A stretch of 7,481 nucleotides of DNA from Desulfobacterales bacterium (GTDB lineage Bacteria > Desulfobacterota > Desulfobacteria > Desulfobacterales > Desulfobacteraceae), in NCBI GenBank assembly GCA_022361135.1, contig JAKSBM010000173.1:1-7481 (forward strand). Direction: 5' to 3'. The translations under genes were made by a program, and so were the position numbers. The notes under the pieces were generated by a model, which searched no databases, was not told the DNA's origin, and worked only from the letters and a program-made list of their open reading frames with translations. Positions 1,031 to 4,632 of the stretch are shown here, piece after piece; position 1 is the stretch's first letter, and every line of letters starts with the position of its first letter.

Positions 1031-2914
1031 ATGGGTATTTTAAAATTCAAACCCCGTTCCATTCGCTTTAAGCTCATTGCCAGCCTAATTCTGGTATCAG
1101 CTTCCATTGGTGTGCTCTGCCTCTTGGTGGGGGGGAATTTCCTCTACCAATCGGTAATACAGGAGGTGAATCACCGAATTCGCCAGGATTTGAATGTGGC
1201 CCGGCTGATTTATGACGATCGTGTGGATTCCATTCGCCAGGCCCTTGAAGTCGCTGCCTCCCATTTTTCCCCGCCGAATCCTCCGGTTTCCATAACCGCC
1301 CCGAATCTTGGTTCCCTTAAGCTGGATTTTCTGGGAAGGGTGGATCTCCACACCCGGGAAAATGAAGCCATGCTTACCCATCCATTATTGGTTCAGGTAT
1401 TAGAGCATCAAAGGAGCGTGGCCGGAACCCTTGTTTTGACGGCGGAACAATTGGCAGGGCTCTCGCCGGAGCTGGCTGCCCGGGCGAAGATTCCCATTGG
1501 TGCAAAGGGGGCAGGCATTGACCAGGGGTTGGTCATGGGGGCGGCCGTTCCCGTTGTTGAGAAGGACCGGCTCCGGGGGATCATTTATGGGGGATTCCTT
1601 TTGAACCGGGATCGGCGTATTGTGGATAAGATAGAGCAAACCGTATTCCGCAATGAAATATACCAGGGCCGAAGGGTGGGCACCGCCACCCTGTTTTTCA
1701 AGGACATCCGCATTGCCACCAATGTGAAAGATGCATTGGGACGCAGGGCATTGGGCTCCCTGGCCTCCCCAGAAGTGTCCCAACGGGTATTGGGTGAAGG
1801 CAAGCCATGGACGGATCGGGCAAAGGTCCTGGATCAATGGTATATCACCGCCTATGAACCCATTCTTAGCATTGAAGGTGAGCGGGTGGGCATGTTTTAT
1901 GTGGGGGTCTTGGAGGCCAAATACCTGGATGTCCGGAAGAGGGGGATGTTGGTTTTCTTCCTGATTACATGTGTGGGGACATTTCTGGCCATTGCCCTGG
2001 GCTGGCTGCTCACCAATAGAATCCTGCAGCCGGTCAGCTCCCTGATCCGGGCCAGCCGGGAAATATCAAAGGGAAATTTCTCCCCGGAATTCGGTCCGGC
2101 CCATGGCGGCGATATGGGGCAACTTCAGGATCAATTCAAGGAGATGAGCCAGGCCCTTGAAAAAAGGGAAAAACGGCAAAGACTCAAAAGCCAGATCCAG
2201 CTCCTCCAATCGGAAAAGCAGGCCAGTATAGGAAAATTGGCCGCCGGCGTGGCCCATGAAATTAATAATCCCTTGACCGCAGTATTGACCTTTTCCCATT
2301 TGCTGCTCCGTCGTTCGGATCTGGACAAGGGCATGAAGGCCGATCTGGAAATGATCGCTTCTCAGACCGAGCGGGTTCGGAAGATCGTCCGGAGCTTGTT
2401 GAATTTTTCCCGGCAATCAAATCTGGCTCCGGAGCAGACCGACATCAATCGCCTCATCGTTGACTCCGTCCGTCTCATGAAGAATCAGGCCCTGGTCAAA
2501 GGGATCCATCTTTCCTCCGAGCTTGATGCGACCCTGCCCGATATCATCCTCGATCGGAATCAGATCCAAAGCGTGATGATCAATATGATTCTCAATGCCC
2601 TGGATGCCACCCCATCCGGAGGGAAAATCACAATCAGTGTGGGGAAGGAATTCATTGACCATGATCTTTGGGTTCGGATTTCCATCGCTGATACCGGATG
2701 TGGAATTTCGCCGGAGAACATCCCCCGTCTATTTGATCCTTTTTTCACCACCAAGGAGATCGGTAAGGGAACCGGACTTGGCCTGGCTGTGTCGTCGGGC
2801 ATTATCCAGCGCCATGGGGGAACCATGGAAGTCTCATCCAAACCCGGTGCTGGCAGTTTGTTTACCATTTGTTTGCCCAGGGATCCCGAAGGGGGAATCG
2901 GGGCTTCATCCTAA
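1031..2914 (+). CDS. Membrane sensor histidine kinase with periplasmic Cache-type domain, HAMP, HisKA and HATPase
   Basis: This 627-residue protein is a two-component sensor kinase. A first membrane helix (about 13-36) and a second (about 305-328) flank a roughly 265-residue extracytoplasmic sensor. The sensor's distal half (VGTATLFFKDIRIATNV, then GRRALGS, WYITAYEPI and GMFYVGVLE) has the pattern of the fused Cache_3-Cache_2 sensor family, which commonly binds small organic ligands. A HAMP linker spans about 329-381. The HisKA helix carries the phospho-accepting His409 in GVAHEINNPL. The HATPase domain shows the N box (N518, N522 in MINMILNALDA), the G1 box D554-TGCG, the F box FDPFFTTK (568-575) and the G2 box GKGTGLGL (578-585), so all catalytic elements are intact. 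No Shine-Dalgarno sequence is visible before the ATG; an in-frame TAA at 1004 excludes a much longer form. It lies 13 bases upstream of a receiver gene and is its likely phosphodonor. The ligand is unknown. Confidence 0.93.
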   Translation: MGILKFKPRSIRFKLIASLILVSASIGVLCLLVGGNFLYQSVIQEVNHRIRQDLNVARLIYDDRVDSIRQALEVAASHFSPPNPPVSITAPNLGSLKLDFLGRVDLHTRENEAMLTHPLLVQVLEHQRSVAGTLVLTAEQLAGLSPELAARAKIPIGAKGAGIDQGLVMGAAVPVVEKDRLRGIIYGGFLLNRDRRIVDKIEQTVFRNEIYQGRRVGTATLFFKDIRIATNVKDALGRRALGSLASPEVSQRVLGEGKPWTDRAKVLDQWYITAYEPILSIEGERVGMFYVGVLEAKYLDVRKRGMLVFFLITCVGTFLAIALGWLLTNRILQPVSSLIRASREISKGNFSPEFGPAHGGDMGQLQDQFKEMSQALEKREKRQRLKSQIQLLQSEKQASIGKLAAGVAHEINNPLTAVLTFSHLLLRRSDLDKGMKADLEMIASQTERVRKIVRSLLNFSRQSNLAPEQTDINRLIVDSVRLMKNQALVKGIHLSSELDATLPDIILDRNQIQSVMINMILNALDATPSGGKITISVGKEFIDHDLWVRISIADTGCGISPENIPRLFDPFFTTKEIGKGTGLGLAVSSGIIQRHGGTMEVSSKPGAGSLFTICLPRDPEGGIGASS

Positions 2915-2927
2915 CAAAGGCATATCC

Positions 2928-3281
2928 ATGAAAATTTTTGTCATTGATGATGATCCCGTTGTTGTCCAGAGTTGCCGCCGGATACTGGAGGCCGAAGGAA
3001 TGACCGTGGAGGTTGCGGAAGGTGTGGCCGAGGCGGAAAAGATTTTAAAAATCCATCAATTCGACCTGACCCTCACCGACATAAAAATGCCGGAGAGGGA
3101 CGGGTTTGACATGATTCGTCAGGTCAAGTCCATCCAACCGAATTTACCGGTGTTGGTGATGACCGGATACCTGACCGAAAGAACCATTGAAAAGGGTCGG
3201 AATGCCGGGGCCGATGATTTCATTGGCAAACCCTTTACGCCCGATGAGCTTATGACGGCCGTTTTCCGTCTGGGATCATAG
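2928..3281 (+). CDS. Stand-alone receiver (CheY-like) response regulator, 117 aa
   Basis: The protein is a single receiver domain with no output domain. Acidic pocket residues D7 and D8 lie in FVIDDDP, the phospho-acceptor is D51 in LTDIKMPERDG, the switch Thr is T79 in VMTG, and the conserved Lys is K101 in GKPFTP. All are in place, so it should be phosphorylated. The ATG at 2928 is chosen because the receiver fold begins exactly there and AAAGG (2916-2920) lies 7 bases upstream. The frame is open further upstream, but that part only overlaps the kinase gene in another frame. It starts 13 bases after the kinase stop. It could work as a phosphate shuttle or sink within a relay, competing with or feeding the receiver of the following channel fusion; this role is inferred from gene order. 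Confidence 0.92.
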   Translation: MKIFVIDDDPVVVQSCRRILEAEGMTVEVAEGVAEAEKILKIHQFDLTLTDIKMPERDGFDMIRQVKSIQPNLPVLVMTGYLTERTIEKGRNAGADDFIGKPFTPDELMTAVFRLGS

Positions 3282-3368
3282 CTGGCGCCACCCGCTTTTC
3301 CGTTTATGGTTTTTTTATCCTGGAGCTTCCGGGGGGAGCCCGGGCTTTGTGTTCAAAGATTAAAAAAT

Positions 3369-3375
3369 GGAGGAG
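3369..3375 (+). promoter_or_regulatory. Ribosome binding site that points to a TTG start of the receiver-channel fusion
   Basis: GGAGGAG is a near-perfect Shine-Dalgarno sequence and sits 6 bases before the in-frame TTG at 3382. It overlaps the upstream ATG at 3367, which itself has no comparable site in front of it. The receiver's first beta strand (TMLIIDDE) begins right after the TTG, which also suits this start. Confidence 0.6.
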
Positions 3376-3381
3376 TTTGAT

Positions 3382-4632
3382 TTGACCCAAACCATGTTGA
3401 TCATCGATGATGAAACCGCTGTTTTGACATCCTGCCAGCGCATCTTCAAGGAAGAGGGGTTTGAGGTAACCACCACAACCAACCCCATTGAGGGGCTGGA
3501 GTTGGCAAAGCAAAATGTCTATACGGTTATCCTCTGTGACTGGCAAATGCCCGAATTGGACGGGATGGATGTGGTGGCGGCATTGGAAAAGCGTGCGCCG
3601 GAATCCGCCGTGGTCATGATTAGCGGCTTCCCCAGTGTGGGGCGGGCCGCTGAAGCCATGAAGCGGGGAGCCATGGATTATCTGGCCAAGCCCTTTACGC
3701 CGGAGGAGATTTCCCATGCCGTACAAAGGGCCGTGGCAGGCAAGTTGTCCCGGGAGAAGAAAACCCTGGGGCGGTTTGAAAATATCCTGGATAAATTCCC
3801 CACCCACGGCATGGATGACCGGGGTCCCAAGATCATTGCGGAAACCGTTGCCCAATCCGTGGGGGTTACCAAGGCGACGTCTCCTTGGTTTTCCCTTTTT
3901 GTTCTGGGGGTGATGGCCGGGGCTTATATCGGGTTTGGCGGCCTTTTCAGCCTTACGGCCACCTTTGATATGGATCCGGGTCTGGGGCTGGGGATGAAAA
4001 AAATGGTGGCCGGTGCCACCTTCAGCATCGGGTTGATGCTGGTGGTTATTGCCGGAGCCGAGCTTTTCACGGGTAATACATTAATGGTATCCAGCGTGAT
4101 CACGGGCCGGGTGGCCTGGAGAACGGTGTTGGCCAAGTGGGGGTTGGTTTATGGGGCCAATTTCATTGGTGCTGTTTTCCTGGCCCTTTTATTCTATTCT
4201 TCCGGCCTGTGGAAGACCGGGGGAAATGCCCTGGGGGAAGCCGCCGTTAAACTCGCCCATGCAAAGGTCAATATCACCTTCTGGGAAGCCTTTGCCCGGG
4301 CCGTGGGCTGTAATTGGATGGTTTGCCTTGCCGTCTGGATGGCCCTGGCGGCCCGCCAGATCATCAGTAAGATATTTGCGGTGTTTTTCCCCATCATGGC
4401 CTTTGTGGCAATTGGGTTTGAGCATTGCATCGCCAATATGTATTTTATTCCCACGGGGATTTTTCTGTCTGAATGGGCTGGCCTGATTCCCCACGGTGTG
4501 GATGCTTCCACCTTGACCTGGTCCGCCTTTTTCGTGAACAACCTGATTCCGGTGACCATTGGCAATACCATTGGTGGGGTTCTGTTTGTGGGGCTGGGCT
4601 ATTGGGGGGCTTACCTGAGGCCGTCCAACTGA
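3382..4632 (+). CDS. Receiver domain fused to a formate/nitrite (FocA/NirC-type FNT) channel
   Basis: This 416-residue protein joins two complete modules. Residues 1-120 form a receiver with D9/D10, phospho-acceptor D53 in LCDWQMPELDG, S81 in MISG and K103 in AKPFTP. A linker of about 30 residues follows. Residues from about 148 to the end form an FNT channel with six predicted helices (about 169-191, 208-232, 249-275, 300-324, 331-361, 382-412). Family motifs are AELFTGNTLMV, CNWMVCLAVWM, GFEHCIANMYFIP and IPVTIGNTIGG. From memory of E. coli FocA, its pore residues Thr91, Lys156, Phe202 and His209 correspond to T230, K295, F341 and H348 at one constant offset. FNT proteins are pentamers moving formate, nitrite or similar anions, with a cytoplasmic N-terminus, so the receiver would be cytosolic and accessible to the kinase. 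Phosphorylation may gate or assemble the channel; this is inference. Using ATG 3367 instead would add five residues. It follows the receiver gene after roughly 100 bases with no clear terminator between, so one operon is likely. The substrate is not settled. Confidence 0.9.
   Translation: MTQTMLIIDDETAVLTSCQRIFKEEGFEVTTTTNPIEGLELAKQNVYTVILCDWQMPELDGMDVVAALEKRAPESAVVMISGFPSVGRAAEAMKRGAMDYLAKPFTPEEISHAVQRAVAGKLSREKKTLGRFENILDKFPTHGMDDRGPKIIAETVAQSVGVTKATSPWFSLFVLGVMAGAYIGFGGLFSLTATFDMDPGLGLGMKKMVAGATFSIGLMLVVIAGAELFTGNTLMVSSVITGRVAWRTVLAKWGLVYGANFIGAVFLALLFYSSGLWKTGGNALGEAAVKLAHAKVNITFWEAFARAVGCNWMVCLAVWMALAARQIISKIFAVFFPIMAFVAIGFEHCIANMYFIPTGIFLSEWAGLIPHGVDASTLTWSAFFVNNLIPVTIGNTIGGVLFVGLGYWGAYLRPSN

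Follow-up and report, generated by a model that had tools for sequence, protein, structure and literature searches.

In this study, we describe a protein in which a complete receiver domain is fused to an anion channel of the FNT family, and our analyses indicate that this receiver–FNT fusion is a real, recurrent and apparently uncharacterised response-regulator output. The gene was found in a Desulfobacterales bacterium, within a stretch of 7,481 nucleotides that was analysed as a whole and is referred to as the window, where it is the last gene of a cassette in the order sensor histidine kinase, lone receiver, receiver–FNT. It is probable that kinase-driven phosphorylation directly modulates the anion flux through the fused channel; we infer phosphotransfer, gating and its direction from the conserved features described below.

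Results

The fusion gene (3382..4632, + strand; 416 aa from a TTG start) is recognised by its open frame and its Pfam matches, and no stop codon occurs within the frame from either ATG 3367 or TTG 3382 to 4632. The TTG is the likelier start, as a Shine–Dalgarno-like GGAGGAG (3369..3375, + strand) is well spaced upstream, with 6 nt between AGGAG and TTG, and most of the listed relatives have 416 aa or close to it. In the 421-aa numbering, Pfam finds Response_reg at residues 11–120 (E = 1.7e-26; 93 bits, cut-off 30.2) and Form_Nir_trans at residues 164–413 (E = 3.6e-82; 275.8 bits, cut-off 34.6), and the score for TIGR00790 is also above its cut-off (256.9 versus 232.3). On the + strand, the receiver domain (PF00072; D9, D10, D53, S81 and K103 in TTG numbering), delimited by Pfam, alignment and AlphaFold2, is encoded at 3397..3726 with the codon of the phospho-acceptor D53 at 3538..3540, and the channel domain (PF01226), identified by Pfam and Foldseek, at 3856..4605 with the codon of the pore histidine H348 (FocA H209) at 4423..4425. 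The protein thus has the curated scores, the fold and the pore His and Thr of an FNT channel, and likewise the Pfam score and the full site of a receiver, consisting of two acidic residues, the Asp, an S/T and the Lys. The original prediction of a single-frame receiver and FNT fusion, made from the sequence alone, is borne out by the open frame, Pfam and AlphaFold2.

The AlphaFold2 model was calculated with an 87-row alignment, a chosen subset, and reached a mean pLDDT of 80.5 and a pTM of 0.59. It shows the receiver fold, an alpha5 that extends to residue 132, a helix at residues 149–165, and the FNT helices; TM4 was not flagged by a plain hydropathy scan with a threshold of 1.6 and was placed by the model together with the FocA alignment. 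The pLDDT was below 50 at residues 128–146 and at residues 226–234 of the Omega-loop, and with this linker and the pTM of 0.59, the position of the receiver on the channel is not fixed by the model. FocA was the top Foldseek match (9g49, TM 0.89 by target length), and the identity to the Escherichia coli protein is 40.1% over 277 aligned residues. What differs is the N-terminus, as the fusion has about 148 residues in which the receiver stands in place of FocA residues 1–11 and runs into the counterpart of the FocA N-terminal helix; the alignment hence confirms the location at the FocA N-terminus that had been proposed for the receiver. The end of the long alpha5 and the low-confidence linker to P149 are encoded at 3727..3825, and the N-terminal helix of the channel, the equivalent of FocA P12–H30, at 3826..3885 (both + strand). 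In this helix, P149 and K164 are conserved and correspond to FocA P12 and K26, G161 and T166 correspond to G23 and T28, and T and S are found in place of Y25 and K29. Passages of two FocA studies describe the N-terminal helix as required for translocation, with Y25, K26, T28 and K29 being important (PMC11841067, PMC12559229). The K26 equivalent is present in 64 of 64 fused rows and the T28 equivalent in 47; the former is also Lys in 36 of 36 unfused rows, and Y25 and K29 of FocA are not kept.

The phosphorylation site is conserved throughout. D9, D10, D53 and K103 are identical in 119 of 119 listed homologues, in which position 81 is Ser (117) or Thr (2). In a partly overlapping set of 43 genomic loci, D9, D10 and D53 are present in 42, the remaining one being truncated, and K103 in all 43. 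In a second clade of fusions (n = 120), D9 and D10 are Asp in 117 rows with 3 gaps, D53 is present in 118 with 2 gaps, and K103 in 120. The complete site that had been recognised in the window protein is therefore a general property of its homologues, and a pseudo-receiver that functions without phosphorylation is made unlikely by its conservation in all three sets. The distance from K103 to P149 is also nearly invariant, with 46, 47, 48 or 49 residues in 127, 3, 32 and 1 of 163 rows, respectively; in the second clade, it is 49 residues in 99 of 119 rows, 45–51 in 118 and 61 in one, not counting one row without P149. Linker and alpha5 contain residues that are at least 90% conserved in the 87-row subset. 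At the level of sequence, the near-constant spacing is the best evidence for a mechanical coupling of receiver and channel.

Fusions of this kind are recurrent. The first homology search scored 8000 candidates, 7824 of them with E ≤0.001, and both Pfam domains were found in all of the best 120 that were listed, one being the protein of the window itself and the other 119 having 67–89% identity to it. With a planctomycete protein of 46% identity to the window protein as second query, both domains were present in 119 of the 120 matches listed, including the query's own; the exception is P0240, a second-clade protein of 352 aa that has only the channel domain and may be truncated. Besides the window's own, both listings together thus contain at least 238 90%-clusters with both domains (119 + 119). 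In one source, a protein of this kind bears the name "response regulator receiver protein modulated with fnt", and the existing database labels apparently are automatic annotation. With one genome scanned per species, 80 loci were retained. Of these, 43 are fused (L001–L041, L047 and L050, including L038 and L040, which are truncated pieces of the fusion), and in the remaining 37 the match is confined, or nearly confined, to the channel. By their record titles, the 43 loci belong to Desulfobacterota/Deltaproteobacteria, Syntrophaceae, Spirochaetota, Acidobacteria, Latescibacterota, Planctomycetota and one unassigned bacterium; many are metagenome-assembled, and single phylum labels may be wrong. 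Two are complete chromosomes of named strains, Desulfosarcina alkanivorans (L002) and Desulfosediminicola flagellatus (L003).

The fusion is frequent in one class and patchy elsewhere. In the class of D. alkanivorans, 38 of 192 genomes have an FNT above the cut-off, and 12 of these 38 have it in a fusion-sized open frame of 425–454 aa, an assignment made by frame length. A second full-length unfused FNT was seen in none of these 12 genomes, and fused and unfused forms may exclude each other. In eight fusion-bearing genomes examined, the fusion is the only full-length FNT, with a second partial FNT in one of them and a sub-threshold match in another. Among Spirochaetota, 12 of 198 genomes match, four with a full-length fusion and a fifth with half of one. 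Two of 392 Planctomycetota genomes match, one being that of the query; the other copy (G402:C404:3081-4346, L083), a planctomycete-group receiver–FNT, has one internal TAG, for which a pseudogene, a sequencing error or recoding are possible readings.

A tree was built from 101 FNT domains, 65 of them fused and 36 unfused; it left out L038 and L040 as truncated as well as L053 and sampled the second clade by 23 proteins. Its fused rows fall into two clades, one with 40 and one with 25 rows. Two changes are needed, and no unfused row lies inside either clade; as a single origin was not rejected (p-AU 0.50), the fusion may have arisen once or twice, judging from this phylogeny. By the thresholds applied, six FNT columns split fused from unfused rows, yet in each of the six the fused class is also seen in the majority of the eight nearest unfused rows, and among the columns compared, no fusion-specific residue was found in the channel. 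The position of FocA N113 at the cytoplasmic mouth had been a candidate, with R/K in 60 of 64 fused and N in 30 of 36 unfused rows, but five of the eight nearest unfused rows also have K, so that the difference looks like ancestry.

The probable partner of the fusion is a sensor histidine kinase (1031..2914, + strand) with sCache_3_3, HAMP, HisKA (H409) and HATPase domains. Its sCache_3_3 match lies between two hydrophobic segments, and the H, N and G boxes are all present (H409, NALDA, DTGCG and GKGTGLGL); the H-box pattern is kept in 34 of 35 kinase homologues. Such a homologue, nearly full-length with the sensor included and of 37–58% identity, is found within four genes of the fusion in 35 of 43 loci, upstream and on the same strand in 34 and on the opposite strand in L050. 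Four of the eight loci without it start at most 0.7 kb from a contig end (L019, L030, L038, L041), and the other four have 2.4–8 kb of upstream sequence without a kinase (L024, L029, L035, L039). For comparison, any receiver or kinase homologue was found within 3 kb in five of 36 unfused FNT loci (BLAST E ≤1e-5), a control with taxa that differ from the fused set and with uncorrected contig ends. The distances of kinases and channels correlate with r = 0.79, which 0 of 2000 permutations reach (34 loci), and this correlation could stem from shared descent. The neighbouring kinase of the original prediction thus holds up, as a full-length enzyme with all motifs that is conserved in most of the 43 loci.

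The lone receiver of 117 aa (2928..3281, + strand) begins 13 nt past the kinase gene; a counterpart occurs in 28 of 43 loci, with the phospho-acceptor Asp in 27. In the window, 100 nt separate it from the fusion, and a terminator-like hairpin lies at 3328–3344, so that co-transcription of the two is not certain; terminator-like sites number 12 in the region, compared to a mean of 7.5 (sd 2.9) in shuffles. The family scan recognised no DNA-binding domain in the cassette of the window, and Rfam and tRNA searches gave no matches.

A further receiver protein, of about 208 aa and with five helices in its C-terminal part, is encoded in about half of the 43 loci. The count is 21 by a length criterion, of which at least one (L047) is in fact a lone receiver whose start is distant, and L039 and L041 carry a protein of this type outside that criterion. 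It consists of a receiver and a conserved C-terminal part of about 80 aa that ends in ...GDIxWIE...WLExRLxAEIW, and it adjoins the receiver–FNT at L034:7983-8609, L010:7287-7913, L050:2038-2766, L039:3611-4531 and others. Both second-clade loci with known context are among these, L050 with a kinase on the opposite strand and L039 without one. The C-terminal part has no Pfam match over the curated cut-off; a length-limited search with it found 62 proteins, all with a receiver, and the Foldseek rows are receiver-bearing proteins as well. It is possibly an undescribed response-regulator output domain.

Single loci and the window hold further open frames. A 376-aa protein with receiver, HisKA and HATPase domains, scanned in L009 and assigned by similar sequence in L027, is encoded between lone receiver and channel gene (L009:6093-7223, L027:6310-7440). 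L017:899-4216, just upstream of the cassette, encodes a further kinase that is homologous to that of the cassette over its full length (37% identity to that of the window), followed by a 455-aa receiver-containing protein. In the window, a 431-aa frame that leaves the contig end (6188–7480) has no Pfam or NCBIfam match, and a 53-aa frame behind an RsmE-type methyltransferase gene (463–624) has no family match.

The channel part had been classified as FocA/NirC-type. This is correct insofar as FocA is the nearest solved channel overall, with 40% identity, but FocA-invariant pore residues are missing, and the name is therefore no guide to the substrate. The window protein keeps FocA F75, L89, T91, F202, H209, K156 and N172 along with P12, G23 and K26 of the N-terminal helix, and F75, L79, G86, L89, T91, K156, N172, V175, F202, E208, H209 and A212 are the same as in FocA in 64 of 64 fused rows. 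In the Omega-loop (G225–L234; 4054..4083, + strand), FocA G86 and L89-F90-T91 are kept, and S92 and T93 are replaced by G and N, both replacements being present in 119 of 119 listed homologues; L167 is replaced by R in 119 of 119, in 42 of 43 loci and in 118 of 120 second-clade rows. The window protein further differs from FocA by K100→V and N113→K. According to Table 4 of an FNT census, S92, S/T93 and L167 are each found in 100% of the FocA subfamily (PMC5525234). FocA as a family name is thus rejected by the G/N/R pore signature and by a TIGR04060 score below the cut-off (228.4 versus 290.1). The NirC subfamilies, characterised in the same census by V212, F/Y79 and R/K37 (alpha), H93 (beta) or N/Q86 and R/K37 (gamma) (PMC5525234), do not fit either, as the window protein has A212, L79, L37, N93 and G86. 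The best-fitting pore column of Table 4 is that of the hydrosulfide channel (HSC), with 11 of 13 informative positions in a hand count (PMC5525234). From the HSC signature F90, G/S/A92, N93, R/K167, F/Y34 and G/S/A/T100, the window protein matches at positions 90, 92, 93 and 167 but not at 34, where it has L and others have V/T instead of F/Y, nor at 100, where V/I stands instead of G/S/A/T (PMC5525234). The identity of the fusion to solved HSC is 28–29% in the Foldseek rows.

Gene context gives little further indication of the substrate. E. coli focA lies beside pflB, whereas no pyruvate formate-lyase gene was recognised in the window, nor was a sulfite reductase gene, as might be compared with HSC. 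When 714 non-cassette flanking frames were clustered, convincing genes reached at most 4 to 6 of 43 loci; the larger clusters, which overlap cassette genes, look like shadow frames. For metabolic genes beside the cassette, recurrence is limited to four loci at most. Most of the 169 neighbours were family-scanned as the alignments A2 (65 rows) and A3 (77 rows), which gave 111 and 106 families with the 25 commonest of each listed, and some were scanned singly. Acetyl-CoA synthetase homologues are near the fusion in four of 43 loci (L022:10221-12725, L041:2530-5034, L032:13394-15367, L047:559-2532), where in L022 and L041 a GNAT acetyltransferase gene comes directly after the cassette and before the synthetase, and L010 has a truncated homologue of 38% identity. 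These neighbours are a hint at acetate, but an anecdotal one. Equally anecdotal are two proteins that score below curated cut-offs: a NuoF-like one in L022 and, in L012, a truncated one that is formate-dehydrogenase-alpha-like. We propose that the substrate would be a small monovalent anion, for instance formate, acetate or possibly hydrosulfide.

Discussion

Our data suggest a pathway in which the sCache histidine kinase (1031–2914) would sense an extracytoplasmic small molecule, autophosphorylate on H409 and pass the phosphoryl group to D53 of the fused receiver. The lone receiver would also be phosphorylated by this kinase, as a co-target or phosphate sink. The receiver switch would then move the extended alpha5, the linker of nearly fixed length and the N-terminal helix at the cytoplasmic mouth, and the anion flux would be raised or lowered without a transcription step. 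Such direct gating is favoured by the conserved phosphorylation site, the conserved pore, the near-constant linker and the conserved kinase neighbour; against it speak the alternative targets of the kinase, namely the lone receiver and, in many loci, the 208-aa receiver protein. FNT channels are generally pentamers, from which the originally predicted five receivers per pentamer would follow. We lean slightly towards the view that the fusions represent a recurrent class of phosphorylation-gated channels, in which a two-component system would, as its output, open or close a pentameric anion channel that is capped by up to five phospho-receivers, for a fast post-translational control of formate, acetate or sulfide in anaerobes.

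One kinase faces two to four receiver proteins per cassette, and one kinase with several receivers is a lay-out known for phosphate sinks. The receiver could hence be a phosphorylation-dependent docking or assembly module that recruits a soluble enzyme, keeps the kinase at the membrane or serves as a phosphate sink on a tether, and the pore would conduct on its own. Passages of the FocA studies describe contacts of the FocA N-terminus with PflB (PMC11841067, PMC12559229), which would be in line with docking. However, the near-constant linker and the residues of at least 90% conservation in linker and alpha5 (87-row subset) fit a mechanical link better than a loose tether, and metabolic genes recur beside the cassette in at most four of 43 loci, so that we regard docking as an unlikely explanation, albeit one to be taken seriously.

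Signals might also run in the reverse direction, with the FNT part sensing anion occupancy and reporting it to the receiver, which would tune the kinase or other receivers, and with transport being secondary or absent. There is a precedent in Ks-Amt5, which, like our fusion, joins a transporter fold to a two-component domain and reportedly binds ammonium without translocating it (PMC5764959). In that protein, an ammonium transporter domain is joined to a histidine kinase, and the non-conducting transporter is the input (PMC5764959). Here, the two-component part is a receiver, and the channel is therefore likely the output, unlike in Ks-Amt5. As receivers are signal acceptors, as the kinase has an sCache sensor of its own, and as the fusion retains the residues that serve pore and gating in conducting FNTs, a transceptor function is doubtful to a considerable degree.

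It is more doubtful still that the fusion is merely historical, with neighbouring genes joined and domains that work separately. Receiver and FNT genes do share one cassette, and the coupling is our proposal, but an uncoupled fusion would hardly persist across several phyla with no unfused row inside either fused clade, a statement to be qualified by the channel-only and possibly truncated P0240. Finally, although the window is a short contig, a sequencing or assembly artefact is ruled out for practical purposes by the at least 238 listed 90%-clusters with both domains and the complete chromosomes of the isolates L002 and L003, which exclude an assembly join, just as the listed homologues from several phyla exclude that relatives lack this architecture and establish its conservation.

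Direct gating by the kinase-controlled receiver, our preferred reading, would place the fusion outside the common types of response regulators, which mostly are transcription factors, enzymes or docking proteins. The fusion resembles CheY-like and NtrC-type receivers in its complete PF00072 domain with all phosphorylation residues and differs in its output, a membrane channel and not DNA binding, an enzyme or protein binding. What we infer to be new is a response regulator whose output is an ion channel. Literature searches by title and abstract start, with subscription papers mostly outside their coverage, gave no report of a receiver–FNT fusion, and among the matches listed there was no paper that combines the FNT and receiver Pfam terms. 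The main text of the FNT census, which covers 2206 sequences, does not contain the terms response regulator, receiver, fused, fusion, domain architecture or CheY (PMC5525234).

If our model is correct, direct channel control adds a class of response-regulator output, and the FNT field gains a natural, genetically encoded gate at the very helix that is essential for translocation in FocA. As it is the only full-length FNT in the eight genomes examined, the fusion could set the timing at which sulfate reducers and syntrophs let formate, acetate or sulfide pass their membrane, and such control would matter for interspecies exchange in sediments.
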